Shown in pieces: positions 60 through 19,271 of a stretch of 22,335 nt of DNA. Every line of letters begins with the position of its first letter. Positions within the stretch are counted from its first letter, which is position 1. A program made the translations under genes and the position numbers. The stretch is from positions 1-22,335 of IMG/VR virus record IMGVR_UViG_3300037336_000069; one strand, 5' to 3'. Under the pieces are notes generated by a model, which worked only from the letters and a program-made list of their open reading frames with translations, was not told the origin of the DNA and ran no database searches. Source of the DNA: a virus.

Positions 60-3000
60 ATGGCTCAATACATCCAGTTGCCGAACGGCGCGTACCTCGA
101 ACTTAAACAAGATCAAACGCCGTTAGATGGGATGACCGCCGCACGCCAGTTATATCCAGACGCGTTCAAAGAAGACGAACCAAAGCCCAAGCAAGACACC
201 ACCGGAACAAAGGCCGCTGTATCCGCAGGGTTTACGCGGTTGGGTGGTGAGTTTGAACTGCTCAAAGGTAAGCTCGGTTTGAAAGACACGGCCCAAGCTG
301 AAGCCGAATTCAGACAAGCCGAAGAAAAAGCCAAAGCACGGTTCACGCCCACCGAAGATAGTTGGTCCGAATCCCCTTTCCAGAAGTTCAAAGAAACCCT
401 TGGTGGCTCCATTCCGTCCATGGTGCTGCCTGCCGCAGTAGGTCTGGCGGCTTTGGCCGCGCCTGTGTCGATCCCCGTCGCTACGGGTCTAGGCTTATTG
501 GGCGCAGGTGTTGCTTCTACGGGCCAGTTCACAGCGGCCAACCTTCGCGCTCAGCTCGACGCGGACAAAACCAAATCCCTCGAAGAAGCTAGCCTCGGCA
601 AGGCGTTCGGCGCAGCGATCCCCCAAGCACTGATTGATACCGCTGCCATGGCGTTGCTGCCCGGTGTGGGCAAGTTGTTCGGCTCCGTGGGCTCCAAGCT
701 GACCACAGAACAAGCCAAGGCAATTGCATCGCAGACGCTGGCTAAGACCGCAGCAGACTACACCGCCAAGACCGGCACTGCCATGGGCCGGGAAGGTTTT
801 ACAGAAGTTGCACAGCAGACGCTTGAGCGGCTGCAAGCGGGTTTGAACATTGCGGACGAAGATGCCCGCAAAGACTACATCGAGAGTTTCATTGGTGGCG
901 CGGTTCTAGGCGGAGCGCTTGCCCCCGTTGGCCGGTTTACTGAACGCAGTGGTGCCAAAAGCCAAGCGGCTGCCGCTGACAGACAAGACAAGAAAGCAGC
1001 CGCCTCTACTGCACTGGCCGAACAAGAAGCCGAACGTACACGGCAAGAAGCCGAGAAGAACACACCCACTTACGCCTTGCGGATAGCTGACGAGTACGCT
1101 GCCGCTGAAAAAACCAAAGCCGACATCCTCGCCCAAAAGCGCACGATCGTAAAGGGCTCGCCTACTGAGACCGCAGACAAAGCGTTCAACAAGACACTGT
1201 TCGATCAAGTCGCAGAGCAAGCCCCTGAACTCAAAGCGCTCGCCGCCGAATATACCCGCCTTGGCCCGAAAGTTACTGAAGCCAAGGAACAGCAACGTGT
1301 AACCGGTCTGTCCCCGGAAGAGTATTCACTGGAGCAGATGCAAGCCGAAGCCGCTGCCGCTGCCGCGCCTGCCCGTCCTTCCCGCGAAGAGCGTCTGGCC
1401 GCAATGAACACGCCGATTGAGGCAGAAGAGACTGTTGCGCCTGAAGCCGAGTACGCTGCTGACCGGATTGCGTTGGCCAAGGATCAGATGGGTCTCACGA
1501 CGAACGTGAACGATTACGTCAGCTACTTGATGACCGATCCACGCATGGCACAGTCCATTGTGGAGAACCAGACGCCTCTGCCCGGACTCAAGCGGGCTGA
1601 ACAAAATGCGATTCGCGGTGCCCTGAAGTTGCAGTTGCAGTCAACGCAGAAACAAGAAGCTGCTCAGACCGCTGCTCGTGCAGAAGACGCCGCAGCGCAA
1701 GCTGAACGTATTAGAGGCAGGCTTGAAAGCCGCACGCCGGGAGCAGAACTAATAGACACCATGCGCGATATGCCCGGAGTACAAGCTGCGGAGGAAACGC
1801 GAGTCAAAGAAGATACGCGCTTGGCAAAGGTAACGCCTGAAGTTGCAGGTATCCGGCGCTTGGGTAAGGTGCCTGAAGGCGAGTTTAGTTCGGCCAACGC
1901 GGATGCTGCGTTCCAGCGTTTGTACACAAAGCAGGCGGATGAGAGTCAAGTCGACCAGCTCTTGGCTACGCTGCCAATCAGCACAATCAGTACTCCCGGC
2001 AAGATTTATGCGGGCATGGGGTTTGAGACGGCCAGCCGCCGTGACTTGCTGACCCGCATTGCAATTGCTAAAGCCCACACCGGCACGGAAAACGTGGCGC
2101 AGCTGCGTGAATCACTGGCCAAACTCGACGCCGAAGCCGCCAGCAAGGCCGAGGGTAGAGCGCGTTTGCCCGGCGAAGGCGCGTTGCCTGAAGCAGAAAA
2201 ACAGACGATGGCTGCCGAAAAATTGGCCGACCAGCAGAGCCGCACGTTGCAAGAGTACATCCAGTTTCTGGCAGACCGAAAGAACGGCAAAGTACGCGGC
2301 ACGTTGCGTACGGGCCGCAAAGAACGTCTTAACGCAGCAGGCGACGAGTTCAAAAGCGCTTACGCCAAACAGCATGTCGATGAAGTAAATGCCCGTTTGG
2401 AGGCGTTTGGTTTACCTACGCTGACCGAAACTGAAGCCAAAGTCGCCACGGGCCGCGTCATGCGCAACCTTAACGAGCTGGGCGAGCGTTGGAGTGCGCC
2501 TGCTGGCAAGGCAGCCCCCGGACGGGGCGCGTTTGGCGCTCCTATTAAAGCGGTGGAAGTGCTGCAAGAACAGATTCGCAGTGGTATGTTCAAGACCATC
2601 AATGATGCAGCGGATCGGTTTAACCTGTCCCAGTCACGTGGCAAAGACGAACGCACTAAAACCGCAGAAGGCGGCGCACGCATCGGGGTGCCAGACGAAC
2701 TTACGCTCCGCGCTGAGTCTACGGTCCCCAAAGACGACAAACGTATCGCCACTGAAACCGCACGCCGCCTGCGCACGACTCTTGACCAACGCACTCAAGC
2801 CACCGGTGAAGATAAGGCCGCATCACTTGATGAAGATACCAAAGACTTTGTGCGTCTTGCCGACGACACGCTTGACCAGATCACGGATACGTCGCTCATT
2901 ACGCGCATCAAAGAAGGCCTGCAAGACGTGGCCGAGGGCCGCAAGGTCAGTGCGCTGACCCAGCAAGAGATTAAAGATTTTGTAGCCACTCGTGCCAAAG

Positions 3001-6000
3001 ACGTACAAAGCGACACCCGTCCCGGTGCCACACCAGAAGAGTTGCAGCGCACCAGCGCACAGCCGCAAATGGGCCTGCCCGGTATCGACGAGCTTGACCG
3101 GACTCAGCGCTTCACGCCCACGAACTTCCAGAAGATGTTGGACTCCAAGGATGTGCAGGGTTTGCGTGCCGCCATCGAGAAGGCGCGTGTAGCAGCGGTC
3201 GAGGCCATCCAAGAAGCAGCGCGAAATACTCCTACGGCATTGCGTGCAGCGCGTACCGCTAAGGCTCGTGCGGACTATAACCTTGCACTGACCCGTGCGC
3301 AAAGTGCAGCACCGGTTGCAAACGCGTTAAGCGCCACCCTTCGTGCAGAACGTGCAGAAGTAGCGGCCAGCGTCAAGACGATCACGGAGCAAGTTGCTGC
3401 ACTGGAACGTGCGTTAGAAGATGTGACGGACATGCGCAAAGCGCTGTCCAAAGAAACTACGGACATGGCCCTGATGATCCGGGCTCCGGCTGTTTTGAGC
3501 CAAGAAGCACCGCTGAAAAAACGGATTGCTGTTGCAAAAGACGCACTGGAAAAAGCCCAAGCGCTGCTGGTGAGCGTAGATAAAGCGCAGGTTAAAGGCA
3601 AAGCGGATCTTGCCGTTGCTACAGAAGAGGCGAAGCAGGCGGATCAGGCCGTTACCGACGCACAAAAAGAAATGGCTGCGGCAAACAAGGCCGAGCGCGA
3701 GGCCGAAGTTGAAGTCAAACAAATAAAGTCAGAGCGGTCCGAGTTCCGGGAAGCTGCGCAGCGTGGTCGTGAGGGGCTGGACTTGCCGGGTCTTCGTAGT
3801 ACGGTTGACACGACCAAGATGAAGTCGCAGATCAACAACATCCGCAGCGCCATGGGTTCGCTCAACGCGCAGCTTGAAACAGAAACTGATCCCGCCAAAC
3901 AAGCCGACATTCAGGCGCGGCTTACCGCAACAGAAGCCAAACTCGAAACGGTATACGCCGATGCCCCGCGCATCGTCACGGCGATCAAAGAAAAAGACCA
4001 GCTTGCTTTTGAGCAAGTGTTTGATAACGTGCAGATTGCTGCTTATGAAAAACAGGCTGCTAAGCGGCGCATCCGGGGTGGTGAGTATGGCCCTGCATTG
4101 GCCAGCCGCAAGCAAGGAGCTGTCGCACGAAGTGGCCCTCTGACAGTGCAGACAGGCGAGAAGCGGGCAACACCTGCAACTGATATGGCCGGTAGCGCTC
4201 TCGAACGCGTGGCACAAGAACGCGCTGCACTCAAAGAGCTGGAAGACCGCGTAGCTTTCCTGCGCAAGAACGGCAAGGACAAGGCCGGTGGTCGGTTGAC
4301 GGACGCATTTAAGGCAATGCAAGCCAAAGTTGACAAGCAAAAAGCCGCTGTCCGCGAAGTTGAAGATGCCCAGAAAGCCACCGTTGCTGCGGTACGTGAT
4401 GTAAACAAGCAAGAGCGTATGGCGAAAGCTAAGCCCGGTTATGGTGGCGGTGTTGTGTTCCGTACGACGACACGGGGCGGCCCGACGCTCGAAACGCAGG
4501 CTGTGTCTGACATTGCCGATCGCATCACAGCCGATTGGAAAAACGCGCCTGAGATTGTTGTGGTGGCCTCGGCGGACAAACTCCCGCTTCGTATCTTTGG
4601 CCAGCTCGTAAAGCGCGAAGCCACTGACAACACTCCCGGTCTGTTCGATATTCCGAGCGGCAAGGTATACCTCATCGCCAACAACCTGCGAAGCGTGAAG
4701 GACGTTGTGCTCACGGTTGCTCACGAGGCCACAGGCCACTACGGTTTACGCGACTTGCTTGGCGGTGACTACACCCGCACGATGGACAGCTTGTACGCAG
4801 GCAACCCTGATGTGCGTAAGAAAGCCGACGCCAAGATGGCCAAGGACTCCGTATTGACGCAGCAAATTGCTGTTGAAGAGGTGTTGGCGGAAATGGCCGA
4901 AACTGGGGGCACTACGCCTGCCGAGAAGAGCGCACTGCGCCGTATTTACGATGCGCTGCGCAACTGGTTCCGCACTACGTTCAAACTGCCAAACGTCACG
5001 GACGCGGAAGTGCAGCAGCTTGTTGCTAACGCCCGCAGGCAGGTTATTGAAGGCGGAGAAAAAGCTCAAGGCACCGCGCCTGATGGCGGTGTGCTGCGTC
5101 GTACTGGTAAGCAAACGGAACCCGCCGATGCACTGGAAGCGTTTGCATTAAAGACCATTGCGCAGCCCAAGACGATCAAAGAAAAGATGGGCAGTAACTT
5201 TGCGCTCCGCGCTGAGATGAATACAGCCGATATGCGTGCTGGTTTGCGCGAGGCACTGAAGTTTGGTGACGACACCTTGTTCACGCAAGCGATGTACGCC
5301 GTGCGTAAAGCTGAGCAGAAGATGGCACAGATGTTCACCGTAATGAACAGCGGGCCGCTGATTACGTACAAAGACAGCAAAGGTCTTACCGGCTACCGCA
5401 GCTCAAACGAGAACAGCGCGGTTGATGTGTTTGATGCAATTGCGGACATCCCTAAAGACGATCCGCAAATGAAGACGGGTGTGGCGCAGGCGTATTTGAT
5501 TGCACGGCGAGCCGAGAACAAAGGACTGTCCAAGCTGGACATGGGTGAGCTGGGCGTTACGCAAGCCGACCTCGACGCAGCGCTGGCCGCAGCCGAAGCA
5601 AACCCCGCGCTTAAAGCCGCGCTGGAAAACGTACGCCGCAAGTACAACGCGTACAACAAGGGCATGATCGAGTTCTTGGCTAGCACCGGACGTATCACCA
5701 AGAAGGTGGCTGCGGACTTGCTCAAGGATGGCGACTATGTGCCGTACTACCGCGTCAACGATAGCGGTGAGGCATTTCTTAACTTTGGCAACAACGTCAC
5801 GTTCAACGTGGGCGACATCCGCCGTCAGCCATACCTTGCTGAACTTAAAGGGGGTCAGACCAAACTGCTGCCCCTGAACGAAGCGATCCAGCAGAACACA
5901 CTGCTCCTGACGGACATGGCGCTGACCAATAACGCCACCAAGAACGTAGGCTACGGATTGCAGGCGTTGGGTAAAGGCAAAGGTCCGGGCGGCAAAGACT

Positions 6001-7739
6001 TGATGACCGTACAGCCGGGGTTTGGTCCTAATAGTCCGAACGTCATCCGCTTCTACCAAGAGCCAGACCCAACAAAACCTAACGACGATGGCAAGCGCCA
6101 CGTTGTAGTCGAGACCAAAGGTACTGCTGCCGAAGGCATCCCTGCTGAGCTGGTGGTTCAGAGTCTGGAAGGCGCGAGCCTTGCGCTACCGGGGTTCTTT
6201 AAACTGGCAGGCGCTGCGGCTGATTTGCTCCGCGCTGGTGTGACCCGGACTCCGCTGTACATTGCACGCAAACTGGTTCGTGAGCCTATGGCCGCGGCCT
6301 TTACCGGCGGCTTAAACAGCAACGCGTTCTCCTCGGTTTTCAAAGCCGGTGCTGAGTTTGTTCGTATGAGCCGGGGTACTAGCGACACGCAAGCTAAGCT
6401 CATCGAGAAGGGCTTAATCCAGTCCAACATCTTCGCAGGCGACATGTCTGACATGAAGAAGATAGCGCTTCAGCTGGCCAGCGGCAAGGACCAAGGCGCA
6501 TTTGATAAAGTGCTGGCCGCTGCCGATCGCTACGCAATGCGTGCCGATGCTGCCACCCTAGCGTTGGTGCTGGAAAACGCGGAGGCTAACGGTCTGTCCG
6601 AAGTCGAAGCTGACATCATGACTATGGAGTCCATGAACTTCTACAAGCGCGGGTTATCCCCTACGCTGCAGTACGCCAGCCGCTTGATCCCGTTCTTTAA
6701 TGCGCAGATCCAAGGCTTGAGCGTCTTGATTAAAGCCGCTCGCGGCAACATGCCCTTTGAAGAGCAGCAGCAGATCCAACGCAAGTTCATCAACAACGCG
6801 GTGCTCCTGACTTTTACCGGCCTTGTGTATGCGATGGCCATGGAAGACGACGAGACGTTCCGCAACGCCCGCCCTCGGGATAAGTACTCCAACTTCTTCA
6901 TGCCCCTGCCGGGTGTGGACGAGCCGTTGAAGCTGCCAATTCCGTTTGAAGCGGGTTACTTCTTCTCGTTGGCTGTGGCTGCCGTTGATAGTATGCGTGC
7001 TGAGACTGACGGCCAAGCGCAGTGGAACGCAATTAAGGACTTGTTCTTGGGCTCCATCCCCGGCTACTCGTCCATGGGCATCCCGCAACTTGCCAAGCCT
7101 GTGTTTGAGCTTTGGGCCAACAAGAACTTCATGACGGGCGCTCCCGTGGAGTCGATGCGCTTACAAGGTCTTGACACAGAGGAACGGTATCTGGCCACCA
7201 CGACGGAGCTTGCCAAGCAGTTCAGCAAGGCAGTCCCTATCTTGTCACCTGTTCAGGTTGAGCACCTTGTGCGCGGGTACCTTGGCGTCTTGCCATTAGT
7301 GGCAGCGGCTGGGGCCAACAGCTTGTTTGAAAGCAAAGACAAAGGCGAGCGTGCCGAGGGCCGGGCATCTACTCTGCCGTTGTTGGGCAGTGCGTTCCAG
7401 AAGAAGTATGGCGGGGGAGATTCCGACGTGGTTTTCCGGGAAGCAAAAGAAGCAATGGATGCGCGGACAACGCTCAACAAGATGACGAACGAAGGCCGCA
7501 CAGAAGACGCCGCCGAGTATCGTGCAGATAACCGCGCACGTTTAATAATGGCAACCGCTGCGGGGCAGTATCGGCAAGTGGTTGGGCGCATCAACGCAGA
7601 CATCCGCCGCACACAAGACCGCACGGATCTTACAGGCGAAGAAAAACGCATCCGTCTGGATGCGCTGGACAAGGCCAAACAAGACCGTGCCGATGCCTTT
7701 ATCCAGAGGATGCGTAGGGCTCAAGAAGCTGGCAGTTAA
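60..7739 (+). CDS. Giant polyvalent virion protein with a zincin-like HExxxH motif and LPD38-type C-terminal domain
   Basis: This 2,559-residue protein is probably packaged in the capsid and ejected into the host with the DNA. Residues 2-36 (IQLPNGAYLEL and following) resemble the short N-terminal motif of phage ejection proteins. Ala/Gly-rich hydrophobic stretches lie at about 115-165 and 185-215. A very long Ala/Glu/Lys/Arg-rich, probably helical or coiled-coil region fills about 290-1470. A zincin-like motif HEATGHYGL starts at His1555 (HExxxH rather than HExxH), with a possible third ligand in EEVLAEMAE near 1605. About 1700-2000 holds a conserved-looking globular region. Residues about 2190-2370 (SRLIPFFNAQIQG onward) match the large polyvalent protein-associated domain LPD38, including a hydrophobic segment near 2243. 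The C terminus is again charged and helical. The ATG at 60 follows GCGGATAGAAC, a modest ribosome binding site. Size and architecture parallel the giant internal virion proteins of podoviruses; packaging is inferred, not seen. Confidence 0.85.
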   Translation: MAQYIQLPNGAYLELKQDQTPLDGMTAARQLYPDAFKEDEPKPKQDTTGTKAAVSAGFTRLGGEFELLKGKLGLKDTAQAEAEFRQAEEKAKARFTPTEDSWSESPFQKFKETLGGSIPSMVLPAAVGLAALAAPVSIPVATGLGLLGAGVASTGQFTAANLRAQLDADKTKSLEEASLGKAFGAAIPQALIDTAAMALLPGVGKLFGSVGSKLTTEQAKAIASQTLAKTAADYTAKTGTAMGREGFTEVAQQTLERLQAGLNIADEDARKDYIESFIGGAVLGGALAPVGRFTERSGAKSQAAAADRQDKKAAASTALAEQEAERTRQEAEKNTPTYALRIADEYAAAEKTKADILAQKRTIVKGSPTETADKAFNKTLFDQVAEQAPELKALAAEYTRLGPKVTEAKEQQRVTGLSPEEYSLEQMQAEAAAAAAPARPSREERLAAMNTPIEAEETVAPEAEYAADRIALAKDQMGLTTNVNDYVSYLMTDPRMAQSIVENQTPLPGLKRAEQNAIRGALKLQLQSTQKQEAAQTAARAEDAAAQAERIRGRLESRTPGAELIDTMRDMPGVQAAEETRVKEDTRLAKVTPEVAGIRRLGKVPEGEFSSANADAAFQRLYTKQADESQVDQLLATLPISTISTPGKIYAGMGFETASRRDLLTRIAIAKAHTGTENVAQLRESLAKLDAEAASKAEGRARLPGEGALPEAEKQTMAAEKLADQQSRTLQEYIQFLADRKNGKVRGTLRTGRKERLNAAGDEFKSAYAKQHVDEVNARLEAFGLPTLTETEAKVATGRVMRNLNELGERWSAPAGKAAPGRGAFGAPIKAVEVLQEQIRSGMFKTINDAADRFNLSQSRGKDERTKTAEGGARIGVPDELTLRAESTVPKDDKRIATETARRLRTTLDQRTQATGEDKAASLDEDTKDFVRLADDTLDQITDTSLITRIKEGLQDVAEGRKVSALTQQEIKDFVATRAKDVQSDTRPGATPEELQRTSAQPQMGLPGIDELDRTQRFTPTNFQKMLDSKDVQGLRAAIEKARVAAVEAIQEAARNTPTALRAARTAKARADYNLALTRAQSAAPVANALSATLRAERAEVAASVKTITEQVAALERALEDVTDMRKALSKETTDMALMIRAPAVLSQEAPLKKRIAVAKDALEKAQALLVSVDKAQVKGKADLAVATEEAKQADQAVTDAQKEMAAANKAEREAEVEVKQIKSERSEFREAAQRGREGLDLPGLRSTVDTTKMKSQINNIRSAMGSLNAQLETETDPAKQADIQARLTATEAKLETVYADAPRIVTAIKEKDQLAFEQVFDNVQIAAYEKQAAKRRIRGGEYGPALASRKQGAVARSGPLTVQTGEKRATPATDMAGSALERVAQERAALKELEDRVAFLRKNGKDKAGGRLTDAFKAMQAKVDKQKAAVREVEDAQKATVAAVRDVNKQERMAKAKPGYGGGVVFRTTTRGGPTLETQAVSDIADRITADWKNAPEIVVVASADKLPLRIFGQLVKREATDNTPGLFDIPSGKVYLIANNLRSVKDVVLTVAHEATGHYGLRDLLGGDYTRTMDSLYAGNPDVRKKADAKMAKDSVLTQQIAVEEVLAEMAETGGTTPAEKSALRRIYDALRNWFRTTFKLPNVTDAEVQQLVANARRQVIEGGEKAQGTAPDGGVLRRTGKQTEPADALEAFALKTIAQPKTIKEKMGSNFALRAEMNTADMRAGLREALKFGDDTLFTQAMYAVRKAEQKMAQMFTVMNSGPLITYKDSKGLTGYRSSNENSAVDVFDAIADIPKDDPQMKTGVAQAYLIARRAENKGLSKLDMGELGVTQADLDAALAAAEANPALKAALENVRRKYNAYNKGMIEFLASTGRITKKVAADLLKDGDYVPYYRVNDSGEAFLNFGNNVTFNVGDIRRQPYLAELKGGQTKLLPLNEAIQQNTLLLTDMALTNNATKNVGYGLQALGKGKGPGGKDLMTVQPGFGPNSPNVIRFYQEPDPTKPNDDGKRHVVVETKGTAAEGIPAELVVQSLEGASLALPGFFKLAGAAADLLRAGVTRTPLYIARKLVREPMAAAFTGGLNSNAFSSVFKAGAEFVRMSRGTSDTQAKLIEKGLIQSNIFAGDMSDMKKIALQLASGKDQGAFDKVLAAADRYAMRADAATLALVLENAEANGLSEVEADIMTMESMNFYKRGLSPTLQYASRLIPFFNAQIQGLSVLIKAARGNMPFEEQQQIQRKFINNAVLLTFTGLVYAMAMEDDETFRNARPRDKYSNFFMPLPGVDEPLKLPIPFEAGYFFSLAVAAVDSMRAETDGQAQWNAIKDLFLGSIPGYSSMGIPQLAKPVFELWANKNFMTGAPVESMRLQGLDTEERYLATTTELAKQFSKAVPILSPVQVEHLVRGYLGVLPLVAAAGANSLFESKDKGERAEGRASTLPLLGSAFQKKYGGGDSDVVFREAKEAMDARTTLNKMTNEGRTEDAAEYRADNRARLIMATAAGQYRQVVGRINADIRRTQDRTDLTGEEKRIRLDALDKAKQDRADAFIQRMRRAQEAGS

Positions 7740-11558: not shown

Positions 11559-11582
11559 GTTTTCTCCGAGTATGTAAAAGGT

Positions 11583-11677
11583 GGGGGTACTCGCTGCGTC
11601 TGTGGTGGAGTCGAACCACCGGATTCACATCCATTACGCCGGAATCAAACCGGCCCTCCAGCATCCGCTTTCCCCCC
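11583..11677 (-). ncRNA. tRNA-like structured intergenic RNA element
   Basis: The leftward transcript between the ssDNA-binding protein stop and the 80-residue gene folds into three adjacent perfect hairpins. First: GCCGG-TTTGATT-CCGGC (11654-11638). Second: GGAT-GTGA-ATCC (11632-11621), with a GNRA tetraloop. Third: GGTGG-TTCGACT-CCACC (11620-11604), a canonical T-arm with a perfect B-box-like loop. An outer pair GGGGG (11677-11673) with CCCCC (11587-11583) and an inner GCTG/CAGC pair can enclose them. As a class II tRNA these would be the anticodon arm (UGA, serine), variable arm and T-arm. However, no convincing D-arm or 7-bp acceptor stem is present and U37 is unusual. It is best called tRNA-like: a tRNA relic, an mRNA processing or stability element, or a decoy. 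Confidence 0.4.
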
Positions 11678-11685
11678 GAAACTAA

Positions 11686-12672
11686 TTAGTCTTCATCGTC
11701 CCAGTCAGCGACGACATCAGCCAGCGCCTTCTTGCCGGGGACAACTGTAGGCTTAGGTGCTGCAGCTTTCTTAACCATAGGTACTTCTTCCTCTTCGGCA
11801 TCCTCTTCAACTACCGGGGCAGGCTTGGCCTTGGCCACTTTAGCTTTCGGTACTGGGACGACGGCTTCTTCCTCGTCTTCTTCGACAACCGGAGCAGGTG
11901 CAGCCTTGGTAGGTGCCTTGCCCTTGAGTGCGTCTGCTGGTTTGCCCATGTCGATGCCCGCTGCGTCCATGATGACCGCTTTCTTGGCTTCTGGGGTCTC
12001 GCCTTGCTTGGTGGCTTCAGCGAACTCGTCATCGGTCAACCAGCGCATGGCTTTGAAGAATAGCTTAGGGGACTCAGACGCCGTATCAAACTTCATGCGG
12101 GTCACAACGGTGCTAGGGTCAACGCCTTGGGCCACGAGCCAGCGAGCGTACGCTTGCAGTGGGCGGTTGTCGCCTTCTTCTTTACCGAAGATCGAGGTCG
12201 CTGGCAGGGACAGCTGCATCACGTCGCCTTCAATATCATTGGCCAGCGTTACGGCCAGACGCTGCTGGTAGCGGCAAGCGCGGCTATTACCGTTCCCGGA
12301 ACCGGCAATGTTTTGTGGGCAGCTCACGCACGACTCGGACTGTGGTGCTTTGCTCTTTGGGTCTGGCTTGTCGCCGTCGTTGGACTGGCAGTCAGGTGCG
12401 GTAGCCGATGCGTCTTTGTCGTACTTGGCAGCGTAGAACACACGGGCCACTTTCGGTGCGGCCTTGACGATAACGACATCAAGAAAACGCTCGTCGACTG
12501 CTGCGACTTCTTTGCCGTCGGCCACCAGACGGAACACACATCCTTTGATGGATATGCGCTTACCGCTGGAGCCAGCACTGCCGCCTGCAAGGGCTTTGGC
12601 AATTTCGGACATCTCTGCCTTGCGTGCAAACGCAGGAACTTGGGAGGGATTGAAAAGGGCTACGTTACTCAT
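11686..12672 (-). CDS. Probable phage single-stranded-DNA-binding protein with acidic C-terminal tail
   Basis: This 328-residue protein has an N-terminal globular part (about 1-235) with four conserved-looking cysteines, C95, C115, C118 and C133, in the context APDCQSNDG...CVSCPQN...CRYQQRLAV, a likely zinc site. It is followed by a low-complexity linker with two copies of a PAPVVEED-acidic repeat alternating with Lys/Ala/Pro. The protein ends in ADWDDED. A folded domain, flexible acidic linker and acidic-aromatic tip is the usual plan of single-stranded-DNA-binding proteins, where the tip recruits partners. Position beside replication genes agrees. I recognise the cysteine pattern from phage proteins annotated this way but am not certain of the fold. 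The ATG at 12672 is preceded by a weak AAGAAAGAAGA site. Confidence 0.65.
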   Translation of the reverse strand: MSNVALFNPSQVPAFARKAEMSEIAKALAGGSAGSSGKRISIKGCVFRLVADGKEVAAVDERFLDVVIVKAAPKVARVFYAAKYDKDASATAPDCQSNDGDKPDPKSKAPQSESCVSCPQNIAGSGNGNSRACRYQQRLAVTLANDIEGDVMQLSLPATSIFGKEEGDNRPLQAYARWLVAQGVDPSTVVTRMKFDTASESPKLFFKAMRWLTDDEFAEATKQGETPEAKKAVIMDAAGIDMGKPADALKGKAPTKAAPAPVVEEDEEEAVVPVPKAKVAKAKPAPVVEEDAEEEEVPMVKKAAAPKPTVVPGKKALADVVADWDDED

Positions 12673-16262: not shown

Positions 16263-17342
16263 TTAATTCTTTGCTAACCCATAGCGCCTGTGTGCGCCAC
16301 CATCTGCTGCCAGCGGTATACCCGGCATGTACTTCGGCTCCATAGTCATCTGCGCCAAAACCCATGGTTTAGCGTCGGCAACCTCTGCGTCCGGCACAAC
16401 AGCTAGCTGCTCGTCATGCACGGTTCCAGCCACGAAGTACCTCTTCGCGGTTCTCAGCATCCCATCAGTCATCACGCATCTCGCTACGCCCTGCGTGACA
16501 TTGTTGGTTATTTTTCCTGCATATAGTTTAGTCTCATCTGCGCCGTATGTCCATTGAAGCCTGCCTTTCTCGTCTTTTCCCGGTTTGAGGTCAGGATACA
16601 GCAGGCTCATGCCAGAAGGCAGCACGATCTCACCCTTCTTGAACGTCACGCATTTGTGCGTGTACTCGTTGCCTTCGTACAGGCTGTACTGTATGAGGTG
16701 TCCGAACAAATTCCACAGCGCCACCACAGGCTCAGCGGTCAGGCGGTACTTGTCGATGATGGCCTTTGACGCGAGGCAGTGGATGACCAACTCTGTCATG
16801 GTGCATGTGTGCGGAATTTCTTCGAGATTCTTGATGTTCTCGTCCCACGCTAAGAACTTTTCTGCTGTAGCGGCAGTCACGCCCATCTTCTTTGCGAAGT
16901 CTTTGTCGTAGCGCACCGGTGGGGCGCCAAGGAATCCGACCAGCAACTGCGCTGCAAACGATGCCCAGCCTAGCCCGTAACCTGCACCAAGCAAAGCGGA
17001 CTTGGCTGACTGACGCAAGTCTGGGTGGCTCTCCTTGGTCATGTCGGGCAAGTTAAACATCTGCCTGCCGAACATGGCGTACGCGTCTTGGCCTGAGCGA
17101 AAAATATCCAGCAGCTCGTCGTAGTCCGCAAGCCAGCCCAACACACGCGGCTCGATCTGAGCCAAGTCACCGACCACCAGCTGGTGTCCTTCAGGGGCCA
17201 TGATTGCCTTGCGCAGGAACGAGCCACGCTTTAAGTTCTGCATGTTGATGGCTGACCCCTTGCTGTTGTGCACAACTTTTCCGTTAGCTACAAACCGCGA
17301 GCGCGGCCCACAATTCATGATGTCATATACAGGTACTAGCAC
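16263..17342 (-). CDS. polA: C-terminal half of split DNA polymerase (family A) with N-terminal intein half
   Basis: This 359-residue protein starts with a C-intein (residues 1-26, ending VANGKVVHN) and continues from Ser27 into the polymerase palm and fingers. Catalytic motifs are complete: motif A GDLAQIEPR (Asp59, Glu64, Arg66), motif B RQSAKSALLGAGYG (Arg110, Lys114, Tyr122) and motif C TVHDEQ (His309, Asp310). The C-extein is 333 residues. The start is GTG at 17342, preceded by AAGGA with 6-base spacing; an in-frame stop just upstream (near 17370) rules out a much longer start. It overlaps the HNH gene by 7 nt. It carries no exonuclease domain, so on its own it would be half an enzyme; joining SKGSAINMQNL to the N half's TGRWTA restores the usual family A sequence. 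The frame is the same as that of the N half. Confidence 0.9.
   Translation of the reverse strand: MLVPVYDIMNCGPRSRFVANGKVVHNSKGSAINMQNLKRGSFLRKAIMAPEGHQLVVGDLAQIEPRVLGWLADYDELLDIFRSGQDAYAMFGRQMFNLPDMTKESHPDLRQSAKSALLGAGYGLGWASFAAQLLVGFLGAPPVRYDKDFAKKMGVTAATAEKFLAWDENIKNLEEIPHTCTMTELVIHCLASKAIIDKYRLTAEPVVALWNLFGHLIQYSLYEGNEYTHKCVTFKKGEIVLPSGMSLLYPDLKPGKDEKGRLQWTYGADETKLYAGKITNNVTQGVARCVMTDGMLRTAKRYFVAGTVHDEQLAVVPDAEVADAKPWVLAQMTMEPKYMPGIPLAADGGAHRRYGLAKN
17265..17342 (-). other. C-terminal split-intein half (IntC), 26 aa
   Basis: Residues 1-26 contain block F (VYDIMNCGPRSRFVANG) and block G (VVHN), with penultimate His25, terminal Asn26 and a Ser as the first extein residue. These are the residues needed for Asn cyclisation and extein ligation. 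Together with the 108-residue IntN they make about 134 residues, the usual mini-intein size, so no splicing element seems to be missing. Confidence 0.88.
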
Positions 17343-18040
17343 TGCTTTTCCTTTTTTGGCCGTCCGCCTCTAGGCTTTGGCATGTTGATAATTTCTTCGT
17401 CCGTAAAACCTGCGAGAACGTACTTGCGCAGCCCCTCGTAGGTGTAGTCTTGCCGCAGCGCCAGCAGACGCTTTAAGCGCTTACCATATACGTGGCCGGT
17501 ATAGCTACGTTTATTACGCGCCTGTTCGCCCCGCGTAGCCCAGCGTAAGTTTCCGGGCTCATACCCCCTGCTGTTGTCTATCCGGTCTATGCTGTGGGTG
17601 TTCGTTGGACGTGGGCCAATGTTGTCGTTTACCCATTGCGCAGCTTCCCGAACGGATGCAAACACAAAACGAATGCCGCGACCGCCATAGTTTTTATATG
17701 CAGGTTCCATGGTGTTTTCGCAGCGGGCCTTAGCGCCTTGCATGATCCGTACTATGCGAAGCTCGGCATCACTGTAAGGCGCAGGCTGTGTGCGTACACG
17801 GGGCGGTTTACGCCGCTTTGTCTGCGGATACTTATTCGGAAACGCCGCGATTTCTCGCTTCATTCGGTCGCTTGTAACGCACGGCATACACCCTGCCGAA
17901 CCGTTTGCACGCAAGTCTTTATATCGCGGCTCCGCATACCTCCCGCACCGACACACACAGGCTATCCGCCACTTACCATCGGAGCCTTTTACGTCGCGCC
18001 CGAGCAACTTCCAGAGCCCTATCGTCGGGTTCTGCTGCAT
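17336..18040 (-). CDS. HNH homing endonuclease lying between the two polymerase/intein halves
   Basis: The 234-residue protein has a cysteine-rich N terminus (C28, C30, C32 and C51, C54: CVCRCG...GCMPC), probably a zinc-binding DNA-contact module. A basic linker follows, then an HNH nuclease core: NYGGRGIRF, HSIDRIDNSRGYEPGNLRW with His149 and Asn164, and EQARNKR with Asn176. This is the usual signature of phage homing HNH enzymes. The C terminus is basic (PKPRGGRPKKEK). I start at 18040 because the zinc region begins there; the frame is open upstream only as a shadow of the polymerase gene. The ribosome binding site is weak. It overlaps the N half by 68 nt and the C half by 7 nt, in a frame shared with neither. 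It probably cuts the intein-free polymerase gene and spreads the arrangement. Confidence 0.85.
   Translation of the reverse strand: MQQNPTIGLWKLLGRDVKGSDGKWRIACVCRCGRYAEPRYKDLRANGSAGCMPCVTSDRMKREIAAFPNKYPQTKRRKPPRVRTQPAPYSDAELRIVRIMQGAKARCENTMEPAYKNYGGRGIRFVFASVREAAQWVNDNIGPRPTNTHSIDRIDNSRGYEPGNLRWATRGEQARNKRSYTGHVYGKRLKRLLALRQDYTYEGLRKYVLAGFTDEEIINMPKPRGGRPKKEKQC
17349..17357 (-). promoter_or_regulatory. A AAA AAG slippery heptamer overlapping the ribosome binding site of the polymerase C half
   Basis: Near the end of the HNH gene the codons CCA AAA AAG contain A AAA AAG (17357-17351) in the correct zero-frame phase for -1 slippage. The C half of the polymerase is exactly in the -1 frame and open from there. 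The same bases give AAGGA (17353-17349), a Shine-Dalgarno six bases before the GTG. The site could therefore drive independent initiation, a low-level HNH-IntC-polymerase fusion, or both. No strong downstream stem-loop is obvious. Confidence 0.45.
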
Positions 18041-19271
18041 CCATGATGCTCTGGCCGCGCTGCTGCGCCTCGAAAAGACTGACGGTTGTTTCGTCGTCGA
18101 GGAAGACTTTGTGATCTGGTGTTCCGGTGATGCCGTCATAGGTAATGACTTCCTTGTATCCGCTGAACTGCACCCCCTCGTGTTGAACAAACTCAACGCC
18201 GTCCCACACGAGGTCATCCGGCAATACATCAACGATTTGTTTGACACACTGGCCGTTGTGCCGATCATACACCATAACCTCTGTATCTGCAACTAAACAA
18301 GCAGTCCAGCGCCCCGTGCTCGCCCCGTAATACGCCAGCGGTACCGGTAATGGGCCGCGCTTGCTAATGTCGAGGAATCGTTGCGCCCGTGTACGCTCTG
18401 TGGTGGACTTCACATTGATGCGAGCTTCACACAGCAGTGCCACTTCTTCGTTCTCGCCGTTGAGCAGGGCTTGGAACATCGCGTCGTTCTTGGCCAAGGC
18501 CAGCGCACTCTTGCCGGTCGTCTTGCTCTTCTTGCGCGGGGCAGGCACACCCAGTTCTTCAAGCACCGCAGCGAACTTCGCGTTCGATGCCAACACTGAC
18601 TCGTCAATATTCAAGCGAGCAAGCAAGGCTTCGCGCTTTTCCTTCTCGGCATGTAGCGCATCCACCAGCATGGGGGTGTCGAGCACCAGCTTGGCTTCGG
18701 TGTACATCTTGATCGTCATGTCGATCAGGCGCAGTTCTTTGGTGGGGTAGCCGTCGATGAGGCGGCTGAACACTTGCTCACACAGCCACACGTCGTGCTT
18801 GCAGTACTCGGCCAGCTTGTGCTCCACGCCCTCGGGCAGCTCGTCGAAGTAGCTCTCGGACAAATACAAGTCGCCGCCCTTGTCGGGAAGGTTGAACGCT
18901 TTGGCCAGCTTGGCCAGTGAGTTGCCGATCTCCGTGCCGCGCCTAGCGCGTGCCATGGACAACGTGTCGAAGATGAAGCACGGATGCACGTCATACACCC
19001 ACGCCAGTATCGAGGCATCGAACAGCGCGTTCTGCGCCACGACGGCGGTCTTGCGCCAGTCGTACGTTGAAAAGATGCGGGGCAGCTCGTCGTGTCGATA
19101 CCAGTGGGTCATGCGATCTGTGCCGTACTCATGGATGCACACACCCCACGCCTTGAAGCGCTCGTCCCGGATGTAGTCCTCGGTTGTCATGACGCTTAGC
19201 GAGTAGCCGGACTTGCGGCACCACGCCGTTTCAAAATCCAATACCAGCAGCGTCGTAAAAGGTTGGCTCAA
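17973..19271 (-). CDS. polA: N-terminal half of split DNA polymerase (family A): 3'-5' exonuclease and thumb, fused to IntN
   Basis: This 432-residue protein holds the proofreading exonuclease: Exo I LVLDFETAW (Asp12, Glu14), Exo II NALFDASIL (Asp85) and Exo III EYCKHDVWL (Tyr156, Asp160). A helical thumb region follows, ending at YYGASTGRWTA (about 314-324), a highly conserved family A motif. From Cys325 it becomes an N-intein. The start is TTG at 19271: AAGGAG lies 8 bases upstream, TTGA overlaps the stop of the preceding gene, and the first in-frame ATG (residue 28) would delete the Exo I aspartate and glutamate. All polymerase catalytic residues are on the separate C-half gene. The extein here is 324 residues; with 333 from the C half the spliced product would be about 657, normal for phage PolA. 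The last ~22 residues overlap the HNH gene. Confidence 0.9.
   Translation of the reverse strand: MSQPFTTLLVLDFETAWCRKSGYSLSVMTTEDYIRDERFKAWGVCIHEYGTDRMTHWYRHDELPRIFSTYDWRKTAVVAQNALFDASILAWVYDVHPCFIFDTLSMARARRGTEIGNSLAKLAKAFNLPDKGGDLYLSESYFDELPEGVEHKLAEYCKHDVWLCEQVFSRLIDGYPTKELRLIDMTIKMYTEAKLVLDTPMLVDALHAEKEKREALLARLNIDESVLASNAKFAAVLEELGVPAPRKKSKTTGKSALALAKNDAMFQALLNGENEEVALLCEARINVKSTTERTRAQRFLDISKRGPLPVPLAYYGASTGRWTACLVADTEVMVYDRHNGQCVKQIVDVLPDDLVWDGVEFVQHEGVQFSGYKEVITYDGITGTPDHKVFLDDETTVSLFEAQQRGQSIMDAAEPDDRALEVARARRKRLRW
17976..18299 (-). other. N-terminal split-intein half (IntN), about 108 aa
   Basis: Begins with the nucleophile Cys in block A (CLVADTEVMVYD) and has block B GTPDHKVF with the TxxH motif (Thr60, His63 of the intein). 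Hydrophobic beta-strand-like segments such as DDLVWDGVEFV and KEVITYDGI lie between. The final 20 or so residues are Arg-rich, overlap the start of the HNH gene and probably fall outside the intein fold. The preceding extein residues are TGRWTA. Confidence 0.88.

Follow-up and report, generated by a model that had tools for sequence, protein, structure and literature searches.

A family of structured phage RNAs with a covarying base and variable tips, apparently undescribed and often located behind ssDNA-binding protein genes

A structured element in a non-coding gap of an uncultured phage represents, as comparison of its relatives shows, a real family of phage RNAs that is apparently undescribed and is not a tRNA gene. 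The DNA analyzed here (the window) is the whole stretch of 22,335 nucleotides of IMG/VR record IMGVR_UViG_3300037336_000069, positions 1 to 22,335. The predicted base of the RNA comprises, in this order, P1, the GAA/AGUA module, GC pairs, the GGAUG/ACGCA internal loop, and P3; it carries a hypervariable tip and is followed 3' of P1 by the trinucleotide RCC. A strongly covarying base with tips exchanged between phages is an unusual combination. No description of this RNA was found in the open-access literature, and it could be contained, unnamed, in a large in-silico catalogue of viral RNAs.

The element in the window

The genes near 11.6 kb of the window are on the minus strand, and the element lies on the same strand as this operon (Table 1). 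Its non-coding gap runs from the upstream stop codon (11688-11686) to the next ATG (11558). The three perfect hairpins and the GGGGG/CCCCC stem noted in the preliminary description are all present on the minus strand, and the hairpin that it termed a textbook T-arm indeed fits the TTCRANY loop. The conserved RCC falls just outside 11583-11677, the ends first given for the element, which are the exact ends of P1. The predicted minimum-energy fold of the gap includes the three hairpins; however, the folding energy of the minus strand was ordinary for its composition (z = +0.22) and was dropped as support for the structure.

Table 1. Features of the element and its flanking genes in the window
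Feature	Positions	Strand	Basis or remark
Whole element	11583..11677	-	11677 (first G of P1) to 11583 (last C of P1); R1 match
P1 5' strand GGGGG	11673..11677	-	Covariation of P1
P1 3' strand CCCCC	11583..11587	-	Covariation of P1
GAA strand, putative bulged-G (sarcin-ricin/loop E-like) module	11670..11672	-	GAA/AGUA kept while P1 varies; 3D fold predicted
AGUA strand, putative bulged-G module	11588..11591	-	Kept while P1 varies; search patterns demand part of AGUA
P2 5' strand GC	11667..11668	-	Pairs with 11594-11593; adjoins the A11669/G11592 apposition
P2 3' strand GC	11593..11594	-	Seen in pattern-found and protein-only elements
Internal-loop strand GGAUG, conserved	11662..11666	-	GGATG in 114/125 long elements
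Internal-loop strand ACGCA, conserved	11595..11599	-	UGCA in other members
P3 5' strand CUG	11659..11661	-	Pairs with CAG 11602-11600; compensatory pairs
P3 3' strand CAG	11600..11602	-	Compensatory pairs
Tip hairpin 1, GCCGG-TTTGATT-CCGGC, anticodon- or T-loop-like	11638..11654	-	Sequence
Tip hairpin 2, GGAT-GTGA-ATCC, GNRA loop	11621..11632	-	Sequence
Tip hairpin 3, perfect T-arm GGTGG-TTCGACT-CCACC	11604..11620	-	T-arm enrichment in tips
RCC (here ACC), directly 3' of P1	11580..11582	-	Conserved in relatives
Upstream gene, 328 aa, acidic C-terminus	11686..12672	-	phrog_27714; stop codon 8 nt before P1
Downstream gene, 80 aa	11316..11558	-	No family

The element as a whole was rejected as a tRNA gene or relic, since its base is not that of a tRNA and both ARAGORN (0 tRNAs in the window) and Rfam (no match in the window up to E = 5) were negative. 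By inspection, the window element has neither a D-arm nor a 7-bp acceptor stem next to the T-arm, where P3 provides 3 bp (CUG/CAG). A scan of the window and 18 further loci with Rfam 15 left the base unmatched, and the only matches inside elements were to tRNA, in the tips. Compared with tRNA (RF00005), the family shares a T-arm, and sometimes a D-arm, in a few tips, but differs in its base. The suggestion of a tRNA relic suits just the tips of the window member and a few others, not most tips and not the conserved base, which is another kind of RNA. Given the ordinary folding energy and the negative ARAGORN and Rfam results, the window by itself proves nothing, and the evidence below comes from relatives.

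An intrinsic terminator was also rejected: at least six T among the 8 nt that follow RCC were seen in only 12 of 125 elements, and no terminator was called at the window site. Elsewhere in the window, two separate open reading frames, 16263-17342 (-) and 17973-19271 (-), match adjacent parts of the phrog_17 DNA polymerase (977-1231 and 687-977, respectively), so that the polymerase gene looks split. A 2559-aa open reading frame at 60-7739 (+), on the strand opposite to the operon, had no PHROG match at E 0.001.

Occurrence of the element among phages

A protein-only search with the protein encoded upstream of the element in the window yielded 80 loci. In part of these loci the frame GGGGG-GAA-A-GC-GGATG-CTG ... 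CAG-ACGCA-GC-G-AGTA-CCCCC-ACC was repeated, while its inside varied from phage to phage. Three pattern scans each recovered at least 120 contigs of uncultured phages. In a scan of about 85,000 genomes of bacteria and archaea, the element was present in 3 contigs, two from MAGs labelled betaproteobacterial and one Armatimonadetes. INPHARED (about 50,700 records) yielded a single true member, the spring-metagenome record MW202879, which came from a second query; the DNA search of this collection with the compact core gave only weak partial matches. Relatives of the upstream gene of the window in the isolated phages Rollin, Xp15, RHph_TM3_14A, and Effie are not accompanied by the element. The carriers are many uncultured water-dwelling phages, and all members of the family are predictions from DNA.

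Because the pattern scans impose part of the core, conservation of GGGGAAAGC and GCGAGTACCCC in the scanned sets is partly by construction, and the case for conservation rests on the protein-only sets and on features outside the patterns; GGATG was absent from the requirements of the first pattern. Model R1, trained on 36 contracted sequences, matched the window at 11580-11679 (49.0 bits, E 1.2e-7), the window element being part of its training set. R1 found one strong copy in 21 of the 27 contigs tested, and several contigs lacking a strong copy had been picked via the protein rather than the element. A weaker, variant copy adjoins the strong one in two of the 21 positive contigs. The element is usually single-copy per contig.

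The conserved base

The GGGGG/CCCCC stem, P1, is the predicted base of the conserved RNA. Of 125 distinct long elements, 120 have a G-run exactly one base longer than the C-run (5/4 or 6/5), the difference to be expected if one G is part of the GAA/AGUA module. A scan that left P1 free retrieved P1 sequences including GGGCC/GGCCC, GAGGC/GCCTC, GGAC/GTCC, and GAACCT/AGGTTC, and pair 2 occurs as each of the four Watson-Crick types. In P3, CUG/CAG is exchanged for CCG/CGG, CCA/TGG, GUG/CAC, and others, with compensation at pair 2 (CG 17 vs TA 94). The mean helix length was 5.03 pairs for P1, compared with 2.14 for shuffled partners, and 4.59 for P3, compared with 2.83, strong figures from a shuffling that leaves phylogeny in and carries no tree correction. 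Compensatory changes in homologues, a check set beforehand, are thus abundant in both stems and leave the structure unrefuted, and the covarying P1 and P3 of widespread relatives lend good support to the earlier idea of a new phage RNA family.

RCC directly follows P1 in 117 of the 125 long elements and in 64 of 94 members whose P1 sequence differs, and it is retained after other stems as well (for example, in L054, L043, and L251). The GC pairs of P2 occur in elements recovered by the patterns and by the protein-only search. In compact members, a short loop, in some a GNRA tetraloop, sits on these GC pairs, and the compact tetraloop members often lack RCC. The GAA and AGUA strands resemble a bulged-G motif and carry the strand signatures of what we take to be a sarcin-ricin/loop E module, with a putative three-dimensional fold to match; their 5'-3' order is opposite to that in the 23S sarcin-ricin loop. 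Four loci (L297, L302, L299, and L350) combine this core with a short P1, behind which come TGACA and a second hairpin whose loop is GGAAAGAC; they possibly represent a larger RNA containing the module.

Variable tips

The tips fall into about 93 to 97 clusters. The three hairpins described above are, by sequence comparison, the tip of the window phage only, hairpin 1 being limited to this phage and its 99% relative L002. Most tips bear no resemblance to tRNA. A perfect T-arm was present in 5 of 93 cluster representatives, compared with 0.025 in dinucleotide shuffles; one of the five is the window and another (L259) was fetched via a T-arm pattern, while L022, L177, and L184 were fetched otherwise. 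The T-arm always lies at the 3' side of the tip, close to the 3' strand of P3. Other tRNA-like tips are those of L113/L250/L272 and L256. With the Rfam tRNA model (threshold 29), the L184 tip scored 33.4 bits, and those of L113 and L250 fell below the threshold with 27.7 and 25.7 bits. A simple pattern detected a D-loop-like GG in six of seven tRNA-like tips checked, and the anticodon part varies among these tips.

These features raise the possibility, an unlikely one in our estimate, that the element mimics an RNase P substrate, P1 standing for the acceptor stem (G1:C72, RCC) and tRNA-like tips for the elbow, so that host RNase P would cleave the polycistronic mRNA just after the stop codon of the upstream gene. 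The window element has a G1:C72-type pair (GGGGG/CCCCC) followed by ACC, RCC persists in the family while the sequence and length of P1 vary, and the T-arms are on the 3' side of the tips. RCC pairs with GGU of RNase P RNA and was needed by a non-tRNA substrate (PMC12710915, PMC11143913), and the reference lists of the same two papers include earlier cases in which RNase P acts on mRNAs of operons and on an RNA of a phage. Operon-mRNA RNase P sites and the C4 RNA of phages P1 and P7 are thus among the closest known systems, the phage element having RCC next to a G:C-closed stem; it differs in its longer stem and bulged-G-like module, and its cleavage is a candidate event. Inspection of the proposed structure gives about 19-20 stacked layers from G1 to the T-arm, compared with about 12 in an RNase P substrate, a stem too long for a normal tRNA-type substrate. 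The frequent absence of RCC from compact tetraloop members and the scarcity of tRNA-like tips also argue against mimicry.

Tips differ between phages with near-identical flanks, as in L186/L279 (97% and 95%), L129/L161 (97% and 99%), and L004/L007 (95% and 95%), and 14 tip clusters stand behind differing upstream gene families, a few of these clusters being weak alignments. Recombination between the conserved arms probably accounts for the swapping of tips, those resembling tRNA included. Exchange of this kind, the sharing of tips by loci with unrelated upstream genes, the appearance of tRNA-like tips in several lineages, and the single copy per contig would all suit a trans-acting phage RNA co-transcribed with the operon, whose exchangeable tips confer specificity as a decoy, antisense, or anti-defence RNA. 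We regard this as improbable, given the compact members with just a short loop and the failure to identify a candidate target; the lack of a sigma-70-type promoter match in the region is weak evidence in the same direction. A related and distinctly improbable idea is that the tip serves as an exchangeable functional cassette, subject to diversifying selection, on an RNA platform carried at a fixed place behind the ssDNA-binding gene; the cassettes might be, for instance, RNA decoys or inhibitors (tRNA mimics included) directed against host defence nucleases. One tip class (L018, L135, and the first element of L004) has the common loop sequences AGTCGCCTC and GTGCCG on covarying stems, suggesting that it forms its own folded domain.

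Neighbouring genes and possible role of the element

The element lies on the coding strand, mostly with the stop codon of the upstream gene 4-9 nt before P1. The upstream genes form 39 BLAST families. Representatives of the large families match the ssDNA-binding PHROGs 743, 18154/7364, 6015/378, 44, and 112 and the RecT-like annealing PHROG 148; their Pfam matches include DUF669, Enc34 ssDNA-binding, DUF932, DUF2303, and Pam3 gp34. By these assignments the upstream gene often encodes a predicted ssDNA-binding or annealing protein from one of several unrelated families, whereas some upstream families have no such link. The upstream protein of the window (phrog_27714, function unknown) had no Pfam match, and its AlphaFold model was not usable (mean pLDDT 53, best PDB match E 0.18); the ssDNA-binding label given earlier to this gene is accordingly putative. 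The 80-aa downstream protein matched no family. When a DUF669 protein was the sole query, the element was found in 14 of 16 loci and was missing from the two most distant. With the window protein as query, 12 of 42 distinct gaps contained the element, and most of the others a different hairpin, with none in 6.

Since the same element joins unrelated genes both upstream and downstream and its tips are exchanged, it could be a linker retained chiefly as a site at which exchangeable gene modules recombine, with the RNA fold secondary. We consider this very doubtful: in P1 and P3, compensatory changes alter the sequence and preserve pairing, a pattern that lowers homology and points to selection on RNA structure.

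We tentatively propose instead, as a reading that is quite possibly correct though by no means assured, that the element acts in cis, as an intercistronic RNA within phage replication/recombination operons, and influences how the upstream mRNA is processed or decays. The base would form a stable roadblock and recognition site in the mRNA, fixing the 3' end and the lifetime of the upstream transcript segment relative to later genes, and the result would be an excess of a protein needed in large amounts. A host tRNA-maturation enzyme might cut first, reading the G1:C72 pair and RCC, and these two features make RNase P the candidate. Consistent with control of the upstream mRNA are the covarying P1 and P3, the position directly behind the stop codon on the coding strand, the usual single copy, the few U-tracts, the ssDNA-binding and RecT-like families upstream, and the occupation of the same gap by the element or another stem-loop in both protein-only samples.

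Precedents exist for RNase P and RCC (PMC12710915, PMC11143913) and for intergenic 3' structures that protect upstream genes, of the malE type (PMC5927463). Like the malE-malF structures (PMC5927463), the phage element is a predicted stable hairpin that separates a gene of presumably high demand from those next to it, in most cases with no U-tract behind it. It differs in being a conserved and specific RNA that contains an internal module and carries RCC and an exchangeable tip. The malE-type position, directly 3' of the upstream gene, is observed; the type of the upstream gene suggests that this gene would be favoured.

Several facts fit mRNA control less well. A plain tetraloop hairpin would protect the 3' end equally, yet the module, GGAUG/ACGCA, and RCC are strongly conserved, which suggests a specific ligand left unnamed by this model. 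The hypervariability and swapping of tips fall outside its explanation, some upstream genes are not of the ssDNA-binding kind (PD-(D/E)XK, DUF932, DUF2303, and unknowns), and a few gaps contain no hairpin. The family opens three questions to experiment: how the dosage of SSB is set by phages, whether phage operons are cut by host RNase P, and what makes the tips hypervariable.

In four loci (L005, L006, L019, and L076), the gap after the window-family gene holds a second, different structured RNA, GCTGGGCCGCAG..GTGTCCCAGC, in which CTGGG/CCCAG is swapped for CTAGG/CCTAG, followed by GCC; those of L005 and L076 had no Rfam match. At L061, a UUCG hairpin and a bulged-G-type hairpin stand in tandem within one gap.
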